From: a virus
DNA: 21,422 bases
IMG/VR virus record: IMGVR_UViG_3300033153_007339
Span: 1 to 21,422 of that record
Strand: one strand, 5' to 3'
Positions 10,081 through 19,811 of this stretch are shown here, piece by piece; within the stretch, counting starts at the first letter, position 1; each line of letters begins with the position of its first letter. The translations under genes and the position numbers were made by a program. The notes under the pieces were generated by a model that saw only the letters and a list, made by a program, of their open reading frames with translations, was not told where the DNA came from and made no database searches.

Positions 10081-10129
10081 GCCCCGGTTCACATTTTGCA
10101 GCGAGCAGCGTGGGAATGTGGACCGGGGC
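10081..10129 (+). terminator. Strong hairpin 28 nt after the late operon
   Basis: GCCCCGGTTCACATT (10081-10095) pairs over 15 positions, with one G-U, with 10115-10129 around a 19-nt loop. It starts 28 nt after the last tail-operon stop. No clean run of T follows (ACCTTTGACT), so it may be an RNA-stabilising or Rho-assisted end rather than a classical intrinsic terminator. Confidence 0.55.
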
Positions 10130-10145
10130 ACCTTTGACTAAAACT

Positions 10146-10282
10146 AAAACGCCCTCATTCATAAGGGAGGATACCCTCTCCTCTAATTAACTAATTCCTA
10201 CTATGCCTCTCCCTCTGTCCAAAACGCCCTCATTAGTGGGGGCCCTTCGAGGGTCCCCCTCCCCCACCCATGAGGGCGTTTT
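10146..10282 (+). repeat. Triplicate AAAACGCCCTCAT arm, two copies forming a 62-bp inverted repeat
   Basis: AAAACGCCCTCATT occurs at 10146-10159 and again at 10221-10234. Its reverse complement ATGAGGGCGTTTT lies at 10270-10282. The second and third copies bound a near-perfect hairpin (10221-10282) whose inner stem is GTGGGGG against CCCCCAC with smaller CCC/GGG pairs around a TTCG. It may be a bidirectional terminator (T run on one side, A run on the other, each of four) or the remnant of a small palindromic mobile repeat. Confidence 0.65.
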
Positions 10283-10680
10283 GGCGAATGTCCGCGCGCC
10301 CCGCATCGTGCCGCACCAAACGTCTTGTCGGCCACGTGACGCGCGAGGATCGCACGTGTGCGCGCCCCGCGACGCGGGCGTGGAAATCTTCGATGCGGCC
10401 GCTTGAACGCGTCTACGGGCCTTGTGGGCGTCCTGGTGGCCGATGACGTAAGTCTTTACCACCACAAGACTTGCGACGTTTCTTGGATGGATATGTCGCC
10501 AGAAATGCCCTAACCTCAAGCAGAGCAAAGACTTAGGGCGAAACGTGCGGCGCATTTTGAGGGCCGCGCGTCCGACGCCCCGGAAAAATCAAAAAAGTTG
10601 TCGCCCTAAGTCCTTGCCACCACAAGAGTTATGGAATCCCAAAAGATTTTTTCAGGATTTCATTTCCATTCGTCGATATG
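10283..10680. other. GC-rich non-coding stretch with direct and inverted repeats
   Basis: No convincing gene is visible here. A 24-bp direct repeat (10449-10472 and 10607-10630, 21 of 24 identical, core CCACCACAAGA) is present. The first copy is also a dyad, AAGTCTT (10450-10456) facing AAGACTT (10466-10472). GCCCTAA occurs at 10507-10513 and 10603-10609, with its inverse TTAGGGC at 10533-10539. The longer pair GACTTAGGGCGA (10530-10541) and TCGCCCTAAGTC (10601-10612) is a perfect inverted repeat. The arrangement resembles operator or origin iterons between divergent expression programmes, but no binding protein is known. Confidence 0.5.
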
Positions 10681-10691
10681 TGGTGTATAGT
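10663..10691 (+). promoter_or_regulatory. Possible sigma70-type promoter
   Basis: TTTCCA (10663-10668) and TATAGT (10686-10691) are separated by 17 nt, giving 4/6 and 5/6 matches to the consensus boxes. It lies in an AT-rich patch just upstream of the purine-rich RNA-like stretch that starts near 10700. Sequence-only promoter calls of this strength are often wrong. Confidence 0.3.
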
Positions 10692-11153
10692 AAGGGCAGA
10701 AAATCGATCCTTGACAACACGACGCGATCCAGACCGGGCGAAAGAGGTTCAGGAGCCGGTTGAAAAAGCCTCAAAGAAAACCACGGATCGCAAGGCACGA
10801 GGGCGGACAAGACCGCAAGCGAAACGCCGACGCGAAATCGAACGGCGAGCGGGCCGCCGGGTGAATATCCCGAAGCCGACTGAAACCTCAACCCGCGATA
10901 AAGCCTGAGCCGAGCGGGCCCGGTCACCCCAAAAACAACAGGGGTGGGAGCGCCGATGAGACGTGAGAAACGGAAACGCCGTTCGGTCGTACCCGCGGTG
11001 AAAAGAACGCGAGACCACCGACGCCGCCTAATCTGACTCGCGAATGGGTCGTGTTCGAATCCATTGACGACAGACAAAGGAACGGACTTCTAGGGGTTGT
11101 CCGAAGCGAGGCGCCGAGACAAAAGCGTCGAAAAACTTCTCTCATTCATCCGA
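10692..11153 (+). ncRNA. Candidate large structured non-coding RNA (unidentified)
   Basis: About 460 nt of purine-rich sequence shows no gene-like start, family motif or plausible protein in any frame, although several frames stay open by composition. It contains many closely spaced complementary segments: 10803-10806/10813-10816, CGCCG 10825-10829/CGGCG 10843-10847, GCGGG 10849-10853/CCCGC 10892-10896 enclosing CGGG 10858-10861/CCCG 10869-10872, CACCCC 10925-10930/GGGGTG 10941-10946, AACGG 10969-10973/CCGTT 10979-10983, AATGG 11043-11047/CCATT 11061-11065, and CGGAC 11083-11087/GTCCG 11099-11103. Unpaired parts are A-rich (GAAA, AAAAACAACA), as in folded RNAs. A possible promoter precedes it and a UUCG hairpin follows. 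The size class recalls large phage RNAs such as GOLLD or ROOL, but no homology can be shown. Confidence 0.45.
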
Positions 11154-11171
11154 AGGGGGCTTCGGCCCCCT
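11154..11171 (+). terminator. AGGGGGC-TTCG-GCCCCCT hairpin
   Basis: A perfect 7-bp stem is closed by the very stable TTCG tetraloop. No T run follows. It could end the upstream RNA or form the first hairpin of the two-hairpin leader before the gene at 11238. Confidence 0.55.
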
Positions 11172-11175
11172 CGCG

Positions 11176-11222
11176 AGCGCCCGAGCGTCGGGCGTTCACG
11201 TCAGGGCCGAAACGTGATGGGA
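11176..11222 (+). promoter_or_regulatory. Leader hairpin copy A (AGCGT loop) and GTGATGGGA element
   Basis: CGCCCG (11178-11183) pairs with CGGGCG (11189-11194) around the pentaloop AGCGT (11184-11188), extended by A-U and G-U pairs at 11176-11177/11195-11196. CACGT/ACGTG can pair just downstream. GTGATGGGA lies at 11214-11222, 15 nt before the ATG at 11238. Similar elements occur before the genes at 11720, 12036 and 14214. Confidence 0.55.
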
Positions 11223-11237
11223 AATTGGGAGAGGCCA

Positions 11238-11402
11238 ATGAAGGAACTGCGGAACGCGCTTGCCACAGTGGTGGAAGTCATCAGGCTGGCGTGGGCGGAA
11301 ATGGTCGAGGTTGACGACCGAACGCTTCGGAAGCAACTCGCCACGATCAAGGCAATCCGATCCAACCAGGCGTCCGCGCCTATTGGGAGGAAGGGACAAT
11401 GA
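11238..11402 (+). CDS. Small hypothetical protein (54 aa)
   Basis: This 54-residue protein begins MKELRNALATVVEVIRLAW, a mostly helical sequence with an amphipathic N-terminal half and a basic C-terminus. It was not recognised. GGGAGAGG lies 4 nt before the ATG. An in-frame ATG at 11217 inside the GTGATGGGA element would add seven residues. Its stop overlaps the next start (ATGA), so the two small genes are likely co-translated. The function is unknown; it belongs to the cluster of small genes that follows the non-coding region. Confidence 0.6.
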   Translation: MKELRNALATVVEVIRLAWAEMVEVDDRTLRKQLATIKAIRSNQASAPIGRKGQ

Positions 11403-11590
11403 AGAAGGCGAAGGAGCAGGTAATTGAGCGACACGGCGAGCGCGTCATCATGCACGCGCCGGGTTTTGAGCGCCGAGAATGGATGCGATGGCCGTATGTG
11501 GTGGCAGGCCCTGACATACAACGTATAAGCTGCGCGACGCTGTCAGCGGCCCGCAAGGTGGCCAAAACTTCACACCAACCTCACACTTGA
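11399..11590 (+). CDS. Small hypothetical protein (63 aa)
   Basis: This 63-residue basic protein was not recognised (HGERVIMHAPGFERREWMRWPYVVAGPD, then a Ser/Ala-rich end containing LSAARKVAK). The ATG overlaps the upstream stop, and GGAGGAAGGG lies within ten bases before it. The sequence suggests a short beta-type fold, similar in feel to small phage proteins that present a parameter or DNA-binding surface, but there is no specific evidence. Confidence 0.6.
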   Translation: MKKAKEQVIERHGERVIMHAPGFERREWMRWPYVVAGPDIQRISCATLSAARKVAKTSHQPHT

Positions 11591-11627
11591 AGTAAGGAGG
11601 AGGAGGCGCGGTCGAGGGTGAGCGCAA

Positions 11628-11703
11628 TCTGAGGACTCAGACGCGGGCGCTTTCGAGCGTCTGCGCGTGGGTCTTTGGTTTAGTCGCCAGGGTCGTGATG
11701 GGA
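11628..11703 (+). promoter_or_regulatory. Leader copy D: hairpin pair plus GTGATGGGA
   Basis: This lies in the 129-nt gap after 11590. TCTGA-GGAC-TCAGA (11628-11641) is followed by an 11-bp stem (A11641/T11668 outer pair) with a two-base bulge and a TTCG loop at 11652-11655. GTGATGGGA at 11695-11703 lies 16 nt before the ATG at 11720. The layout matches copies A and B, but the loop is TTCG, not AGCGT. Confidence 0.45.
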
Positions 11704-11719
11704 CGTTTGGAGGTGCAGG

Positions 11720-11944
11720 ATGGTTGAGGAAAAGGCGGTGGACAGTTTGGACAGGTTTAAGCTTTCAGTTGGTGGATATTGCCGCCGACATAGTGATGAT
11801 TTCTCAGCCAAGGATTTGGCTGAGATTTACGCCTATCTGCAGGCGGGTGACGGGCGGCGCGGGTGCAGAAAACTCATGAAGCTCATTGAGGCCCACCGCA
11901 CAATCGAAGAGATCAACCGACTCATGGATGTGGTGAGGCTGTGA
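11720..11944 (+). CDS. Small hypothetical helical protein (74 aa)
   Basis: This 74-residue protein was not recognised. It is almost wholly helical (LDRFKLSVGGYCRRH, DLAEIYAYLQAGDGRRGC, LMKLIEAHRTIEEINRLMDVV). TGGAGGTG lies just before the ATG and decides the start. It is preceded by a structured leader and followed by another, so it appears to be a separately controlled single gene. No catalytic motif is evident. Confidence 0.7.
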   Translation: MVEEKAVDSLDRFKLSVGGYCRRHSDDFSAKDLAEIYAYLQAGDGRRGCRKLMKLIEAHRTIEEINRLMDVVRL

Positions 11945-11950
11945 AAACAC

Positions 11951-12018
11951 GGAGGCCTCCCGGCCTCCCTGAACGCCTGCAGCGTGCGGGCGTTGAGGTT
12001 AGCCGGGAAGTGATGGGA
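11951..12018 (+). promoter_or_regulatory. Leader copy B: two hairpins (AGCGT loop) plus GTGATGGGA
   Basis: Hairpin 1 is GGAGGCC (11951-11957) with GGCCTCC (11962-11968) and loop TCCC. Hairpin 2 is AACGCCTGC (11972-11980) with GCGGGCGTT (11986-11994), nine pairs including one G-U, closed by AGCGT (11981-11985). GTGATGGGA at 12010-12018 lies 17 nt before the ATG at 12036. Hairpin 1 may also end the upstream transcript. Confidence 0.6.
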
Positions 12019-12035
12019 TGAATGGAGGTGCAAGC

Positions 12036-12326
12036 ATGAGGCTAAGTCGGCGGGCTGTGCGAGATTTGGAGGCGTCGTTGACGCCGGACGATCTCGCGCG
12101 GTTCATGACCCGCTATGCCGCAAAGGATCAGGTGACTTCGGTGGCGCGTTTGCTCCACTGTTTTCGCCCGTATCAGGCAGCACCACGCAAGGCCGATTGC
12201 GTGGCGCTGGTGCGGCGGCATGCGGAACGCGGCGACCTCGAATTTGCTGACACAAAAAGCAAACTCGAAGTAGTCGTAATCGGCAACGCGGCAACAGTGC
12301 CGCAAACGCAGGCGCTTCGAGTCTGA
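12036..12326 (+). CDS. Hypothetical protein upstream of, and perhaps fused by frameshift to, the AAA+ ATPase
   Basis: This 96-residue protein has a helical N-terminal domain (LSRRAVRDLEASLTPDDLARFMTRYAAKD, HCFRPYQAAPRKADCVALVRRHAERGDLEF). It was not recognised. GGAGGT at 12024-12029 selects ATG 12036 over the in-frame ATG at 12018. The frame ends in CTT CGA GTC TGA. In the +1 frame, open sequence from 12280 encodes a heptad-like coiled coil running without a stop into the AAA+ gene at 12421. It could therefore be the N-terminal part of a single frameshifted protein or a separate short protein coupled to the ATPase. Confidence 0.7.
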   Translation: MRLSRRAVRDLEASLTPDDLARFMTRYAAKDQVTSVARLLHCFRPYQAAPRKADCVALVRRHAERGDLEFADTKSKLEVVVIGNAATVPQTQALRV

Positions 12327-12420
12327 ACTCGTTCAGATTCGCGAGGCAGCCGACCAGGACATTCAGCAGCGTAACGAAGAAATTGCACGGCTGAAGGCCA
12401 CCATCGAACGCCAAGAAGCG

Positions 12421-13227
12421 ATGCGCAGTTCCGTATTCGAGCTGCACTATCCCGACGGAACAATCAGAAAACGTGAACAGGGAGTCACACTTCCGAAGGA
12501 GTATCGAACAATACTCGAGCTCGCTTCTCAGCGCGTTCACACCATGCTTGTCGGGCCTGCAGGATGCGGAAAGTCATTTCTGGCTGAGCAGGTGGCGGAG
12601 GACTTGAACCTCAAGTTCTACGCCGTCTCCTGCTCGGCAGGAATGAGCGAAGCGATGCTGGCAGGCTGGCTTTTGCCTACGGGCAAAGCCGGCGCTTTCC
12701 AGTATGAGCCCAGTCCCTTCGTGACGGCGTACGAAAACGGGGGCGTGTTTCTGTTTGACGAAATCGACAGCGCCGACCCAAACACGCTCACATTTATCAA
12801 CAGCGCCCTGAGCAATGGAGGGATGTTTGTCCCCCAGCGTTTGGGGAAACCGTTTGTCAAGCGGCACAAGGATTTCGTTTGCATCGCTGCAGCAAACACC
12901 TTCGGCAACGGTGCCGATATGGTTTACGTCGGCCGCAATCAGCTTGACGGCGCAACGCTCGACCGCTTTCGCGCAGGAATGGTCACACTCGACTACGACG
13001 AAGAAGTGGAACGGGCCCTTTGTGACGAAGAAATTCTCCGCTGGGGCTGGGCGCTTCGGCGTCGAATGCGCGAGAGCGGACTTCGACGCTTCATGTCCAT
13101 GCGCTTCATGATCGAAATGTCGAAAATGAAGCGCGAATACAACTGGGGAAGGGACCTTTGGGAGCAGCGTTTCTTCGCAGATTGGACCGCGGACGAAAAA
13201 GCAACGGTCGGCATCAGCCGAAACTGA
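12421..13227 (+). CDS. MoxR/CbbQ-type AAA+ ATPase
   Basis: This 268-residue protein is an AAA_5-type ATPase. Walker A is GPAGCGKS (45-52), Walker B is VFLFDEID (109-116), sensor-1 Asn159 lies in AAANTFG, and an arginine-finger-type Arg182 lies in LDRF. SGxSEAMLAGWLLP after Walker A is typical of the MoxR/CbbQ branch, whose members remodel or activate partner proteins together with VWA-domain proteins. The next gene encodes such a VWA-like partner 13 nt downstream, which supports a paired complex. ATG 12421 has only a weak ribosome site, and the frame upstream is open to 12280 with coiled-coil sequence (SELVQIREAADQDIQQRNEE), so the real N-terminus may be longer. The substrate in the phage cycle is unknown. 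Confidence 0.9.
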   Translation: MRSSVFELHYPDGTIRKREQGVTLPKEYRTILELASQRVHTMLVGPAGCGKSFLAEQVAEDLNLKFYAVSCSAGMSEAMLAGWLLPTGKAGAFQYEPSPFVTAYENGGVFLFDEIDSADPNTLTFINSALSNGGMFVPQRLGKPFVKRHKDFVCIAAANTFGNGADMVYVGRNQLDGATLDRFRAGMVTLDYDEEVERALCDEEILRWGWALRRRMRESGLRRFMSMRFMIEMSKMKREYNWGRDLWEQRFFADWTADEKATVGISRN

Positions 13228-13240
13228 CGGAGGCGAAGCA

Positions 13241-14038
13241 ATGAAGTATCACAGAAAAGACTTCGCCTCCGTCATGGAGTTGCGAAGCTACTGTCGGGAA
13301 CAGGACCTGAGAAAGCACAGCGACGACAGAGGGTTTAGCCAGTCCTGGTTTGGACTATCGGGCGGCGCAAAGGCCGTCGACGATATGTTCTTGACGGGTT
13401 GGCACGAAGGCGCAGAGCGAATCCGCCAGACTTTGAAGGTTCTGACAGCACCGAAAATCAGCAGCGTCCGACGTAAGCGAGTGCGCGGGCCCATCGGAGA
13501 CGAGGTTGATATGCAGCGTGTGTATGCTGGCGACCTTGCACGGGCCTGGAGCACCACGACACGGACACCCAAGCGCGGCCGTCAAATCCGGCCGGTCACA
13601 ATTGTCGTCGACATCAGCACCGTCTGGTCGCGAACTAGCGACGAGTATTTCTGGCGCGGTGCTGTAGCGACGCGCCTTGCTGATGAACTGCAAAAGGCAG
13701 GGCGAGCCGTAAGGATCGTGGTGGCGATTTGCCACGACGATGCATTCCGTGACGGTGCGGGGTTCCTGTGCTCCGTAGTCGTCAAGGACTTCCAAGAGCC
13801 GTTGAGCTTGGATCGCGTTGCATACCAAACGGCACTTGCTGGCTTCTACAGGTATTACGTCTTCGCGGCAGAGGAGCATGTTGCCGAAGATAACAACACA
13901 AGGGCACAAGCTGGTCTAGGTCGTATAGTCACATTCCTTGAGGAGGAGTTCCCAAACTGGGGAGAAAACGTGATAATCGTCCGCGGTGTCTGGCATCGAA
14001 GTGATGCGCAGATTTTCCTAGACAGCATCGCGAAATGA
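13241..14038 (+). CDS. VWA-like (CobT-type) partner of the AAA+ ATPase
   Basis: This 265-residue protein has a leading region (GAKAVDDMFLTGWHEGAERI), a linker (GDEVDMQRVYAGDLARAW) and a Rossmann-like VWA fold from residue 118: PVTIVVDIS with Asp124 and Ser126, then WRGAVATRLADELQKAGRAVRIVVA, AYQTALAGFYRYYVF and ENVIIVRGV. The metal-site motif is only partial: DISTV in place of DxSxS, so metal binding may be lost or altered. CobT/CoxE-like proteins bind MoxR ATPases in chelatase-type complexes, and phage homologues of this pair exist with unknown role. The ATG follows GGAGG. The 3' end uses more AT-leaning codons than the 5' part. Confidence 0.8.
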   Translation: MKYHRKDFASVMELRSYCREQDLRKHSDDRGFSQSWFGLSGGAKAVDDMFLTGWHEGAERIRQTLKVLTAPKISSVRRKRVRGPIGDEVDMQRVYAGDLARAWSTTTRTPKRGRQIRPVTIVVDISTVWSRTSDEYFWRGAVATRLADELQKAGRAVRIVVAICHDDAFRDGAGFLCSVVVKDFQEPLSLDRVAYQTALAGFYRYYVFAAEEHVAEDNNTRAQAGLGRIVTFLEEEFPNWGENVIIVRGVWHRSDAQIFLDSIAK

Positions 14039-14043
14039 CTAGT

Positions 14044-14092
14044 GAGGGGCGTCGGCCCCTCCATACACCCCTGCAGCGTGCGGGGTTGTATG
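14044..14092 (+). promoter_or_regulatory. Leader copy C: two hairpins (AGCGT loop)
   Basis: Hairpin 1 is GAGGGGC (14044-14050) with GCCCCTC (14055-14061) and loop GTCG. Hairpin 2 is CATACA plus CCCTGC (14062-14074) with GCGGGG plus TGTATG (14080-14092), one C-T mismatch, closed by AGCGT (14075-14079). It shares CCTGCAGCGTGCGGG with copy B while the outer stem differs. Confidence 0.6.
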
Positions 14093-14130
14093 ATAGGGCC
14101 GACAACCGACAGGGCCAGTAGGAGCGCCAC

Positions 14131-14189
14131 GCGGGGGTGGGCAGGTCGCGCGAGCCGCCGCAACGCGACTAAATAACTGTCCACCCCGC
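14131..14189 (+). ncRNA. Long two-stem structured leader of the zinc-finger gene
   Basis: 14131-14144 pairs with 14177-14189 over 13 positions (one G-U) with a single bulged G. Inside it, GTCGCG (14145-14150) pairs perfectly with CGCGAC (14164-14169) around a 13-nt loop, leaving TAAATAA (14170-14176) unpaired on the 3' side. The ribosome site AAGGAGG starts 11 nt later. The fold suggests a cis-acting regulatory RNA or a small RNA; no known class was recognised. Confidence 0.55.
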
Positions 14190-14213
14190 TTTGATCTAGA
14201 AAGGAGGCTGCTA

Positions 14214-14393
14214 ATGGAAAAAATCTGTTACGTGGCGGGCTGCAAGAACAGCGCGGTTTTCCGCGGGATGTGCCAAAAGCATGCGAAACGTGAGCAAGAA
14301 ATCGCCGAAGCACAACACCGACGTCACTTAGAACATCTTGTCGAGGCGTGGTCACATCAAAGCCACGTGGAGTTGGTTTTGGGTGAAAAGTAG
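14214..14393 (+). CDS. Small zinc-finger-like protein (59 aa)
   Basis: This 59-residue protein begins MEKICYVAGC. Cys5, Cys10, Cys20 and His23 form a CxxxxC...CxxH set (GCKNSA, RGMCQKHAKR) seen in many very small phage proteins and presumed to bind one zinc. A His/Glu-rich helix follows (AEAQHRRHLEHLVEAW). AAGGAGG lies 6 nt upstream of the ATG. Small zinc-ribbon proteins of this kind are often host-takeover or DNA-binding factors, but the target cannot be inferred. It stands between a strongly structured leader and the tRNA-like gene. Confidence 0.75.
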   Translation: MEKICYVAGCKNSAVFRGMCQKHAKREQEIAEAQHRRHLEHLVEAWSHQSHVELVLGEK

Positions 14394-14453: not shown

Positions 14454-14528
14454 TGCTCCGTCGTCTAACATGGCAAGACACCGGACAATGGGAGTCCGGA
14501 GAAGACGGTTCGAGTCCGTCCGGGGAAG
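14454..14528 (+). tRNA. tRNA-Pro-like gene with an enlarged anticodon arm
   Basis: The cloverleaf reads well. The D stem is GTCT/AGAC (14463-14466/14476-14479) with conserved A14, G18-G19 and A21 in the loop, and U8 is present. The T arm is perfect: GACGG-TTCGAGT-CCGTC (14504-14520). The acceptor TGCTCCG (14454-14460) pairs with CGGGGAA (14521-14527) except one G-A. CCG rather than CCA follows the discriminator G. The anticodon arm is two nt too long: CCGGA (14481-14485) with TCCGG (14495-14499), leaving a 9-nt loop, or six pairs with loop AATGGGA. The only T (14489) gives anticodon UGG if central or GGG if it is U33; both read proline codons. It may be functional, decayed or a tRNA mimic. 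Confidence 0.7.
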
Positions 14529-14533
14529 CCGAA

Positions 14534-16314: not shown

Positions 16315-17664
16315 ATGAGAATTGAAAAGTGCCGGGTTGATAATCTCAACCCAGCGCCCTACAACCCTCGAAAGGATTTGCAACCTGGCGACAAAACCTA
16401 TGACAGCTTGAAACGCAGCGTCGAAACATTCGGCCATCTTCAGCCGATTATTGTTAACAAACGCACGCGTCATGTCGTAGGCGGTCATCAACGGCTGAAA
16501 GTCTTAAAAGACTTGGGCCGGAAAATGGTCGACGTCGTATACGTTGATATTCCTATCGAGGAAGAAAAGGCGCTCAATCTAACACTTAATAAAAGTGTAG
16601 GTGAGTGGGATGAGCCCAAGCTTGCTTCCTTGCTCCAGGAGTTTGAGGCATTTCCCCAGGTTGAGGTAGAGTTAACAGGATTTACTAAGGCAGAGGCAAA
16701 AGCAGTCGTTGACCACCAACTCGATATTGCGGCGGGCACTGGTGAAGATGATTTTGACGTTGACGCAGCGCTAGATAACAAGCAGAAGTTTGTTACAAAG
16801 CAGGGCGAACTCATTAAGCTGGGGCAGCACCGCCTGCTGTGTGGTGATTCGACCGACCCTGAACAGGTGCGCAGGCTTATGGATGGTGAGCGCGCTATTC
16901 TATTTGCCACCGACCCACCATATCTGGTTGGTCTCGGCCCAAAGGATATATTCAGCCCCAGCAAGAAGCACTTCGGACGGCGAGTCAAAAAGAAAGATTG
17001 GTCTGATAGCTACGGTCTGACGTGGGACGAAAAAAACTGGGACCAGAAGCTTTATGAAGGGTTCTGTCGCGCGGCAATTGCAGAAGCTGTTCTCCCGAAC
17101 GCCGCCTGGTATCTCTGGCATAGCCATAAACACCGAGTGGCAGTTGAAACTTTATGGAATAAGCTAGGAATATTTGTCCACCAGGAAATCATCTGGGTGA
17201 AAATGCACGCTGTTATGGCACACTCTGAGTACCGATGGCAACATGAGACGTGCATATATGGATGGGTGAAGCCTAATAGACCACCAACGCACGGCACGGC
17301 GGGATCTCCAACAACCGTTTGGCAGTTTAGCCGCCCCACACTAGGCGTTGGAGCAAGAACATTGCACCCGGCCACGAAGCCGATTGAACTATTTGCAATT
17401 CCAATGCGACAACACACAAGGCGGGGCGAAATATGTTATGAGCCCTTCTGCGGGAGCGGGTCACAAATCATAGCCGCCGAAAAGTTAGGGCGTCGGTGCT
17501 TTGCGCTTGAAATAAGCCCACAATACTGCGATGTAATAGTTCGCCGCTGGATTGCATTTGTTGGAGAGACAGAAGCTCCCGAACTGTTAGTCAGACGATA
17601 TGCCGTTCAAGAGAAAAAATCCACGCACAAAGTTAAACGTGTTAGGCGTGTAAAGAAGCTGTAA
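16315..17664 (+). CDS. ParB-domain / DNA methyltransferase fusion
   Basis: This 449-residue protein joins an N-terminal ParB/Srx-like domain (residues 1-135: NPAPYNPRKD, HLQPIIVNKRTRHVVGGHQR with GGHQR at 56-60) to a DNA (adenine-N6 or cytosine-N4) methyltransferase. The catalytic DPPY is at 200-203, HPATKP at 351-356 and the AdoMet-binding FCGSGS at 378-383. This order of catalytic motif before AdoMet motif is the beta class. Such fusions are frequent in phages and usually act as solitary methylases, protecting phage DNA from host restriction or marking it. A basic tail (KVKRVRRVKKL) probably adds DNA contact. AGGAGG is 6-12 nt before the ATG. The target site is not predictable. Confidence 0.94.
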   Translation: MRIEKCRVDNLNPAPYNPRKDLQPGDKTYDSLKRSVETFGHLQPIIVNKRTRHVVGGHQRLKVLKDLGRKMVDVVYVDIPIEEEKALNLTLNKSVGEWDEPKLASLLQEFEAFPQVEVELTGFTKAEAKAVVDHQLDIAAGTGEDDFDVDAALDNKQKFVTKQGELIKLGQHRLLCGDSTDPEQVRRLMDGERAILFATDPPYLVGLGPKDIFSPSKKHFGRRVKKKDWSDSYGLTWDEKNWDQKLYEGFCRAAIAEAVLPNAAWYLWHSHKHRVAVETLWNKLGIFVHQEIIWVKMHAVMAHSEYRWQHETCIYGWVKPNRPPTHGTAGSPTTVWQFSRPTLGVGARTLHPATKPIELFAIPMRQHTRRGEICYEPFCGSGSQIIAAEKLGRRCFALEISPQYCDVIVRRWIAFVGETEAPELLVRRYAVQEKKSTHKVKRVRRVKKL

Positions 17665-17937: not shown

Positions 17938-18147
17938 GTGACCGTTGCCGAACTAATAAAGAAGTTGAAAATGCACCGGCTAGACGCAGAAGTCGTTATA
18001 TCGTCTGATGGTGCAGAATTGCCTTCATATATTACATCGGTGCATACACGCGACCAAAATCCCACCACAAAATTGAAACGCGTCGCGGGTGTTAATTATG
18101 CGGATTTGCCAAAGCCTCAGGTCCAGATTAACGTGAGCGTATTTTGA
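17938..18147 (+). CDS. Small phage protein of the 'TVAELIKKL' type (69 aa)
   Basis: This 69-residue protein has the N-terminus TVAELIKKLKMHRLDAEVVI followed by a beta segment (YITSVHTRD, PKPQVQINVSVF). This pattern (helix with L-x-x-L, then D-A-E-V-V) is common to tiny phage proteins that are widespread and functionally unassigned. GTG 17938 is chosen because family members start a few residues before AEL and AGGAAACG lies upstream; the longer frame from 17875 is implausible. The stop overlaps the following start (TGATG). Confidence 0.75.
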   Translation: MTVAELIKKLKMHRLDAEVVISSDGAELPSYITSVHTRDQNPTTKLKRVAGVNYADLPKPQVQINVSVF

Positions 18148-19811
18148 TGAGTGAAACACGTGTTGTTAACATGCGCCACGAACCCCACGACGTGAGAATT
18201 GACCGGCGGACAATGTGGGGAAATCCATTTAGAATTGGGCCAGACGGGACGCGTGAGGAAGTAATAGATAAGTACCGCGAATGGGTATTAACTCAACCCA
18301 TGTTAATGTCACATCTGAATTGGCTCAAGGGCAAACGCCTAGGTTGCTGGTGTAAACCGCTCGCGTGCCACGGCGACGTTCTCGTGGAATTGATAGATAA
18401 GATTGGCAGAGATGCGCAGCATGAAGAGATGCGCAGCATGAAACGTAGGTTCTGGAAACATCAGTTAATAGCGTTTGGATATGCCAGGCGCAGAAGACAT
18501 CCGGCGCTTTTCATGGAAATGCGTCTCGGGAAAAATCTCGTAACGATCAGAACTGTTATGTTATATAAGCCGCTCGACCCAAACCGCGGCTTGCGAGTGC
18601 TAATAGTTGCGCCTCGGAGTGCGTTTGCGGGATGGAAACACGACCTTACGTTGGAGGGGCAGGGCAATGATATAGCGTGGCTTGTCGGTTCACGTAAGGA
18701 GCGGCTTGAAGTATTACATAACAAAACTGCTAGGTGGAACATCATAAACAAAGAGGGCTACATATCAATTCCAGAAATTGCAAATCTCAGGATTGTGAAC
18801 TGGGACGCTGTTATATTAGATGAGAGCACGTTCATTAAAAATCCTAAAGCAAGAGTAACACGGTTCTTCGTGAACCGTTTCCGAGACTGCCCACATCGTT
18901 GGATTCTAACAGGCACCCCAAACCCCGAAAGCGACATGGAGTTTTGGACACAGCTATCATTTCTCAATGGGCACTTTTTACAATGTAGAAACTTTTGGGA
19001 TTTCCGTGCGAAGTATTTTGAGCCTGAACCTGGAGGATATGGCTGGACACCAAAACCTGGAATGTCTAAGATTATTCAGGAAGCTGTAGGAGCGCAGGCG
19101 CTTATCATGCGCCGCTCAGACGTAGGTATGGCAAGAGAAAAAATCATCGAGCGGCGAACTGTTAGCTTTCCGAAATCAATTCGGGACATTTACGACACGG
19201 CCGAAAATGAATATGTGCTTGTCGCGGGCGCCAAGACAAAAACAACTCAATGGGCAATAGTTAGATACACTTGGCTACGTCGACTGTGTGGTGGTTTTGT
19301 AGACGGAAAACTGATCTGGCCTGGGAAGATTAATTTGCTTCTTGAATTGATACAAGGCGAGCTTCGACACGACCCAGTTGTTATATGGTTTAATTTCAAC
19401 TCTGAGCTATTTGCTGTTCGCGACGCACTTTTGAAGGCTAAGATTTCAAGCACTTATATCTTGGGCGACTTGAGCCCAGCTGAACGCCAGATGCGTCACA
19501 AATTATTTCAAAGTGGCAAGGTGCGTGTTCTTCTCCTTCAACAGGCAGTTGCACAGCTTGGTATGGATTTGTCGAGGTCGGATACTGCCATATATTATAG
19601 CGAGCCTGTTGGTCGCTTAGCAAATCAGCAGACGCAGGACAGAATCATAAATCTGAACAAAAGTGGTCCATTGCTAATTGTGTACTTGCACGTGGAATCT
19701 AGCGTGGATGAAGATGTGCATGAAGTGCTCTCTGGCAAGAAGATACGGGCCGGCATTAGTATGTATCGTGCGCTGCAACACGCGATGAGGCTGAGGAAGG
19801 AAGGAGCATGA
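18147..19811 (+). CDS. DUF4326-SNF2-family helicase fusion
   Basis: This 555-residue protein starts with DUF4326 (residues 5-85: WGNPFRIGPDGTREEVIDKYREW, then RLGCWCKPLACHGDVLVEL with Cys67, Cys69, Cys74 and His75). Superfamily-2 SNF2-like ATPase motifs follow: modified Walker A MEMRLGKN (123-130, Asn where Thr is usual), VLIVAPRSAFAGWK, DEST (225-228), ILTGTPNP (253-260), and a C-terminal RecA domain with VVIWFNFN, LGMDLSRSD and QQTQDRI. The usual HRIGQ after that arginine is replaced by INLNKSG. Phage SNF2-like proteins are thought to translocate on or remodel DNA. DUF4326 normally occurs alone and its activity is unknown. The ATG overlaps the upstream stop (TGATG). ATPase competence is likely but not certain. 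Confidence 0.9.
   Translation: MSETRVVNMRHEPHDVRIDRRTMWGNPFRIGPDGTREEVIDKYREWVLTQPMLMSHLNWLKGKRLGCWCKPLACHGDVLVELIDKIGRDAQHEEMRSMKRRFWKHQLIAFGYARRRRHPALFMEMRLGKNLVTIRTVMLYKPLDPNRGLRVLIVAPRSAFAGWKHDLTLEGQGNDIAWLVGSRKERLEVLHNKTARWNIINKEGYISIPEIANLRIVNWDAVILDESTFIKNPKARVTRFFVNRFRDCPHRWILTGTPNPESDMEFWTQLSFLNGHFLQCRNFWDFRAKYFEPEPGGYGWTPKPGMSKIIQEAVGAQALIMRRSDVGMAREKIIERRTVSFPKSIRDIYDTAENEYVLVAGAKTKTTQWAIVRYTWLRRLCGGFVDGKLIWPGKINLLLELIQGELRHDPVVIWFNFNSELFAVRDALLKAKISSTYILGDLSPAERQMRHKLFQSGKVRVLLLQQAVAQLGMDLSRSDTAIYYSEPVGRLANQQTQDRIINLNKSGPLLIVYLHVESSVDEDVHEVLSGKKIRAGISMYRALQHAMRLRKEGA

Follow-up and report, generated by a model that had tools for sequence, protein, structure and literature searches.

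Three copies of an RNA element with two competing predicted folds in the small-gene array of an orphan phage

Why would a phage keep hairpins with one invariant terminal loop on three unlike stems within a single run of small genes? The question arises from IMG/VR virus record IMGVR_UViG_3300033153_007339, which we analyzed as a complete record of 21,422 bases (hereafter, the window) and which is probably a fragment. The original prediction for this locus had placed AGCGT-capped hairpins at 11176–11196, 11972–11994 and 14062–14092 and held that their pairing had been retained while the stem sequences changed; all three hairpins are present, with differing stems and intact pairing. The 7-bp tetraloop hairpin that had been placed just before each of them is likewise real in 3/3 copies. 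Absent from that description is a downstream strand, here called X, which is the most informative feature of the locus. With a probability of roughly 0.4, we interpret the copies, termed A, C and D, as paralogous cis-acting RNA elements, bistable and placed at gene junctions in the + strand array of a tailed phage, that switch by way of a toehold to a rod probably cut by RNase III.

Each copy is assembled from the same parts (Table 1). The upstream hairpin, H1, possesses 7 bp and a 4-nt loop. The downstream hairpin, H2, comprises 12–13 layers with a single mismatch and is capped by AGCGT; once H2 is drawn to this full extent, the gap between H1 and H2 is 0 nt in every copy. Strand X begins 3–4 nt past H2 and forms an exact complement to the loop of H1 (TTCG, TCCC and GTCG in A, C and D, respectively) together with the adjoining 3–4 nt of the H1 3′ arm. 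All copies lie in a single orientation, on the coding strand. The AGCGT sequence is invariant among the three, as predicted, while its reading as a pentaloop has an alternative, with the folding program drawing it as an A-U pair that closes a GCG triloop. Copies C and D have 27 nt in common at 85% identity, and the invariance of AGCGT is therefore partly a matter of recent common descent.

Because X is complementary to the H1 loop and 3′ arm, each copy can adopt two mutually exclusive folds, either H1 followed by H2 or one long rod. In the rod, X is joined to the H1 loop and the upper 3′ arm in an outer helix of 7–8 bp, which is continued by a symmetric internal loop (3×3 in A and D, 4×4 in C), by H2 and by the AGCGU end, for a total of 23–24 layers in all three copies. 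The predicted energies of the H1 state and the rod are −34.0 and −36.8 kcal/mol for copy A, −34.0 and −37.1 kcal/mol for copy C, and −34.2 and −35.9 kcal/mol for copy D, a gap of just 1.7–3.1 kcal/mol. In growing transcripts, the predicted minimum finally abandoned the H1 form only upon completion of X. Predicted accessibility of the Shine-Dalgarno (SD) sequence in copy A rises from 0.67 in the H1 state to 1.0 in the rod; no state-dependent SD exposure was predicted for copies C or D. A pseudoknot in which H1 and the loop-X helix coexist was rejected: it would be strained, with the 4-nt loop fully paired and no crossing nucleotide, and it leaves the extension of X into the 3′ arm unexplained.

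The co-occurrence of these parts is not a product of chance. A scan of the whole window that was blind to AGCGT, and that demanded only that an H1 loop and three or more nt of its 3′ arm find a complement downstream, returned the three AGCGT copies and one coding match, where a first-order Markov model expects 0.17 matches per strand to this rule. A fuller descriptor comprising H1, an adjacent H2 and X, with the loop sequence again ignored, recovered all three copies in the window (~0.04 expected) and just three weak, coding-like places among other strand-bases totalling ~3.5 Mb; two of these places resemble one and the same coding motif of the AAA+ gene. It is this disparity that argues against a chance origin of the element.

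We next turn to the pairing itself, for which pairs were counted in a hand-made register across copies A, C and D. All 21 of the 21 cells of H1 are paired, and both partners are replaced from copy to copy in four of its seven pairs; the rod's outer helix, also paired in all cells, has four of eight pairs so changed, and H2 has four of 13, with three mismatched cells. At one position the two folds are tied together: the H1 3′-arm base beside the top pair is C, G and C in A, C and D, its 5′-arm partner is G, C and G, and its partner in X is also G, C and G, so that one base keeps two alternative partners. When the rods are aligned with MAFFT, with one gap misplaced and pairing hence undercounted, 95% of cells pair as compared to 25–47% in slid-register controls, and the covariation score of 0.508 (0.212 in shuffles) was reached by 0/500 shuffles. 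The G-U pairs within H2 (pairs 6 and 11) occur on the + strand and would be A-C on the opposite strand, which points to an RNA of the coding strand. Finally, a covariance model built from C and D alone recovers copy A with 42.8 bits (E = 4e-8). The compensatory changes, the + strand G-U pairs and the leave-one-out match together make selection on an RNA structure, as originally proposed, well supported at the level of sequence comparison, and the compensatory changes demonstrate that both predicted folds have been kept. As the three copies are paralogues in one genome, this evidence speaks to selection since duplication and not to conservation across species.

Does the element belong to a wider family? 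Rfam 15 gave 0 matches at the gathering threshold in the window, in line with the expectation that no described family would fit, and the best match in 11050–14250 was a microRNA model whose 24 bits fall short of its gathering score of 80. The original prediction had looked to covariance-model searches of other phages for further members. A search of 32 records of relatives gave no match (best E = 0.42), and a search of 44 sources on both strands returned the window's own three copies alone; by this measure the family is confined to this genome. An alignment of DUF7192, the domain encoded upstream of copy D, led to 34 distant viral loci and to none in genomes, and neither the descriptor nor the covariance model found the element in any of these loci. 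Pattern scans of IMG/VR were equally unproductive: an exact scan for CTGCAGCGTGCGGG revealed no such element among the matches listed and fetched, AGCGT-gap-GTGATGGGA-N5-GGAGG gave four matches, all by chance, the start box described below gave five chance matches, and CSCCTGCAGCGTGCGGGSK gave five matches, none with an H1-X element. GTDB genomes scanned for the start box yielded two chance matches. Thus, neither the related phages nor the IMG/VR and GTDB pattern scans yielded a homologue, which does not by itself prove the absence of close kin. As far as these searches reach, the element is known from one orphan phage and belongs to no family tested.

The description of the three sites as intergenic leaders is loose. 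Copy C does lie between a stop codon and a start codon, following the stop of open reading frame (ORF) 11720–11944 by 6 nt and ending 27 nt before ATG 12036. Copy D follows the stop of the DUF7192 gene by 5 nt and is 110 nt removed from the next start. Copy A, which ends 26 nt before ATG 11238, is situated inside open frames, with no stop codon in any frame within 60 nt upstream. A box of the form GTGATGGGA-N4-TGGAGGTGCA precedes two starts, 11720 and 12036, where 0 are expected by chance; GTGATGGGA by itself, without TGGAGGTGCA, follows copy A, and no GTGATGGGA box follows copy D. The box occurs without H1 and X at site B (11695) and the element occurs without the box at D, and the two are therefore separable modules. 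A similar arrangement is described for the start-associated sequences (SAS) and extended SAS (ESAS) of cluster K mycobacteriophages, where a short box precedes the starts of non-structural genes, an inverted repeat lies upstream at some sites only, and the parts are separable (PMC3203893). In contrast, the SAS is a 13-nt consensus, GGGATAGGAGCCC, located within a few nt of starts, and the box in the window does not conform to it. That study found scant evidence that the ESAS repeats pair as RNA, and its authors preferred DNA-binding sites (PMC3203893), whereas pairing is here backed by compensatory change. We also considered that the freed G-rich 5′ arm of H1 could serve as an SD sequence 6 nt from the ATG within GTGATGGGA in copies A and C; this was rejected, as copy D has no start codon at that position and SD sequences of their own are already present in A and C.

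Taken together, a model for the element emerges. During transcription, H1 and H2 would form first; the emerging X would then use the exposed loop of H1 as a toehold for pairing, displace the H1 5′ arm and complete the rod. In its design the element resembles a strand-exchange switch. The rod would be the signal that is read, with RNA processing or stability its likeliest use by analogy to the T7 early operon, where the host RNase III cuts intergenic hairpins. H1 may then represent a pre-switch state that delays or conditions the rod, for instance when ribosomes complete translation of the upstream gene at the stop codons 5–6 nt before H1 in copies C and D. As in T7, several related irregular hairpins occupy gaps between phage genes, with a stem of about two turns broken by an internal loop; 3/3 copies have this architecture, which a T7-type RNase III site would display. 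In size and internal loop the rod resembles T7 R1.1, a structured RNA of 60 nt that is located between genes 1.0 and 1.1 and has a 4/5 internal loop, and a rhizobial RNase III favours longer double-stranded RNA than the E. coli enzyme does (PMC6121014). We folded the T7 early gaps for comparison and obtained hairpins of a similar kind, placed at stop codons or immediately downstream of them, yet less stable, with about −13 to −26 kcal/mol as compared to −36 to −37 kcal/mol for the 58–60 nt of the copies in the window. The T7 sites differ in that, in the part of their description consulted, no competing 5′ hairpin, switch strand or fixed terminal loop features.

Several points weigh against this interpretation. 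The evidence derives from three paralogues of a single genome, with no homologue in related phages or in other searches, and transcription, cleavage and the state populated in vivo are predicted. Bistability is not known for T7 sites, which carry no fixed loop, and cleavage by RNase III alone leaves H1, X and AGCGT unexplained. The position of copy A, which is not behind a stop codon, weakens the ribosome-coupled version of the model. A broader proposition, which we advance tentatively and with confidence well below even, is that the element represents a class of natural toehold strand-exchange switches absent from Rfam, in which the H1 loop would be the toehold for a downstream strand, the resulting rod would be competent for processing or for protein binding, and the module is reused at several junctions with its sequences rewired yet matched. 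Selection on both of two competing folds is rarely evidenced, and triple-matched changes furnish it here within a single phage genome. If correct, the element would be a compact natural case of loop-toehold strand exchange in mRNA, repeated as a module that sets expression or processing at gene junctions.

Other explanations distribute the same features differently. In a translational operator, a phage RNA-binding protein or a host factor would read the AGCGU-capped hairpin, the GUGAUGGGA box or both, and control initiation of the downstream small genes. The constancy of AGCGT on differing stems, the position of GTGATGGGA just upstream of an SD stretch in three genes with its twofold non-random extension by TGGAGGTGCA, and the predicted SD exposure in copy A speak for such an operator; yet C and D show no such exposure, D has no box and a distant next start, the element is missing at box B, and the small ORFs that were compared with Pfam or PHROGs gave no RNA-binding match, which makes an operator unlikely. 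The original prediction had assigned the AGCGT loop to a phage antiterminator or repressor. No positive evidence for this was obtained: no RNA-binding gene was recognised, with no RNA-binding domain among the ORFs scanned in a record of only 21 kb that is probably a fragment, and the invariance comes from three paralogues of which two are near-duplicates, leaving AGCGT as a protein site possible but unsupported. A DNA-level element, whether it serves replication or recombination, forms a cruciform or is a mobile palindrome that has multiplied in the genome, would account for repeats in one genome and for the similarity of C and D. We regard it as very improbable, given that all copies face one way between genes, that G-T pairs in the stems and a third strand competing with H1 make little sense in DNA, and that terminal repeats or site duplications around the copies were not seen by eye.

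Two further alternatives draw upon known transcript-level control. The HK022 putL and putR RNAs, each of ~70 nt with two stem-loops and putR ~270 nt from its promoter (PMC9378689), resemble the copies in placing two adjacent stem-loops in phage transcripts within ~60–70 nt (PMC9378689), and the repetition of such hairpins, ~58–60 nt in all, within one gene array could suggest processive antitermination by nascent stem-loops that bind RNA polymerase and suppress termination. This is improbable here: put elements sit downstream of early promoters, one per operon, with no third strand described, rather than in three copies at gene junctions; in put RNA both stems and unpaired bases contact the polymerase, and these unpaired bases and bulges are kept, whereas each H2 has one mismatch at a differing position; and no terminator-rich region was found downstream. 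Riboswitch and attenuator expression platforms likewise employ mutually exclusive helices of near-equal energy, in which one strand has two partners and the order of synthesis matters. The copies share all of these traits, and a ribosome terminating 5–6 nt upstream of C or D could cover the H1 5′ arm and force the rod, with H1 persisting otherwise, so that downstream expression would sense upstream translation; the strand order of 5′ arm, loop with 3′ arm, and X is indeed that of a three-segment attenuator. Still, no stop codon lies within 60 nt upstream of copy A, a U-tract is missing after both states and there is hence no intrinsic terminator to control, and an SD shift is predicted for A only, which makes an attenuator-like switch improbable. 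The copies also differ from such platforms in having no ligand domain and in occurring three times in one phage. Terminator-like calls were likewise absent on the + strand at A, C and D, with no T-run after H1 or X, and an intrinsic terminator is therefore excluded. Hammerhead or hepatitis delta virus-like ribozymes, suggested by CGAAAC and UGGGAC-like strings, were set aside because the strings are not common to all copies and match nothing in Rfam, as was an integron attC-like site, whose GTTA is unpaired and not shared as GTTRRRY.

Table 1 Positions of the element parts, boxes and selected genes in the window.
Feature	Position	Strand	Description
Copy A, H1	11154..11171	+	7-bp hairpin AGGGGGC-TTCG-GCCCCCT
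Copy A, H2	11172..11200	+	11 bp, one C.A mismatch, AGCGT loop 11184–11188, flush with H1
Copy A, X	11204..11211	+	GGGCCGAA, complement of H1 loop and 4 nt of 3′ arm
Box after copy A	11214..11222	+	GTGATGGGA, upstream of SD-like GGGAGAGG and ATG 11238
Small ORF after copy A	11238..11402	+	54 aa; no Pfam match
Box B	11695..11717	+	GTGATGGGA-N4-TGGAGGTGCA before ATG 11720; no H1/X element, a different hairpin upstream
Copy C, H1	11951..11968	+	GGAGGCC-TCCC-GGCCTCC, 6 nt past stop codon of ORF 11720–11944
Copy C, H2	11969..11997	+	11 bp, one G.G mismatch, AGCGT loop 11981–11985
Copy C, X	12002..12008	+	GCCGGGA, complement of H1 loop and 3 nt of 3′ arm
Box after copy C	12010..12032	+	GTGATGGGA-N4-TGGAGGTGCA before ATG 12036
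Copy D, H1	14044..14061	+	GAGGGGC-GTCG-GCCCCTC, 5 nt past stop codon of DUF7192 ORF 13241–14038
Copy D, H2	14062..14092	+	12 bp, one C.T mismatch, AGCGT loop 14075–14079
Copy D, X	14096..14103	+	GGGCCGAC, complement of H1 loop and 4 nt of 3′ arm
tRNA-Pro (TGG) gene	14454–14530		In phage array
ParB-methyltransferase gene	16315–17664		ParB-like domain fused to DNA methyltransferase
DUF4326-helicase ORF	18144–19811		Single ORF uniting DUF4326 domain and SNF2-type helicase

The genes around the element place it in a tailed phage of unusual isolation. Gene-transfer-agent-like tail genes, including those for the tape measure and the tail hub, occupy the window to ~10.05 kb and are followed by a repeat-rich gap and then by the + strand array of small genes. 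Besides the copies, this array encodes a CobS-like AAA+ ATPase (12421–13227) and its DUF7192 partner (13241–14038), together with the tRNA-Pro, a ParB-methyltransferase fusion, an SNF2-type helicase and a uracil-DNA glycosylase. The tail hubs of the nearest phages are only ~32% identical, which marks the virus as one without a close known relative; single-protein searches for near relatives gave one distant DUF7192 match, and no match with the CobS-like protein or the tail hub as query. The DUF7192 protein has counterparts in 34 viral loci, and genes for a CobS-like ATPase and DUF7192 adjoin in Acinetobacter AM24-like phages.

Additional inverted repeats were observed on either side of the copies. 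A 15-bp hairpin, GCCCCGGTTCACATT..AATGTGGACCGGGGC, lies at 10082–10128, ~30 nt past the last structural gene, and carries GCAGCGAGCAGCGT in its loop; it scores 16.7 bits (E = 0.059) with the leave-one-out covariance model, with no H1 or X seen. At 10219–10284, a near-perfect 24-nt inverted repeat, CCAAAACGCCCTCAT..ATGAGGGCGTTTTGG, resembles a bidirectional terminator and lies between the array of tail genes and that of small genes; one of its arms recurs in part at 10146–10170. A 17-nt inverted repeat around 59 nt (10525–10617; fold z-score −4.8) is positioned just upstream of a promoter-like site at 10663–10691, which is a weak consensus match only and the nearest such site to copy A, ~460 nt downstream of it. 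Beyond copy D, the stretch to the next gene (14040–14225) has a fold z-score of −4.1, and a strong hairpin, GCGGGGGTGGGCAG..CTGTCCACCCCGC, occupies 14134–14188, between copy D and the gene at 14214.

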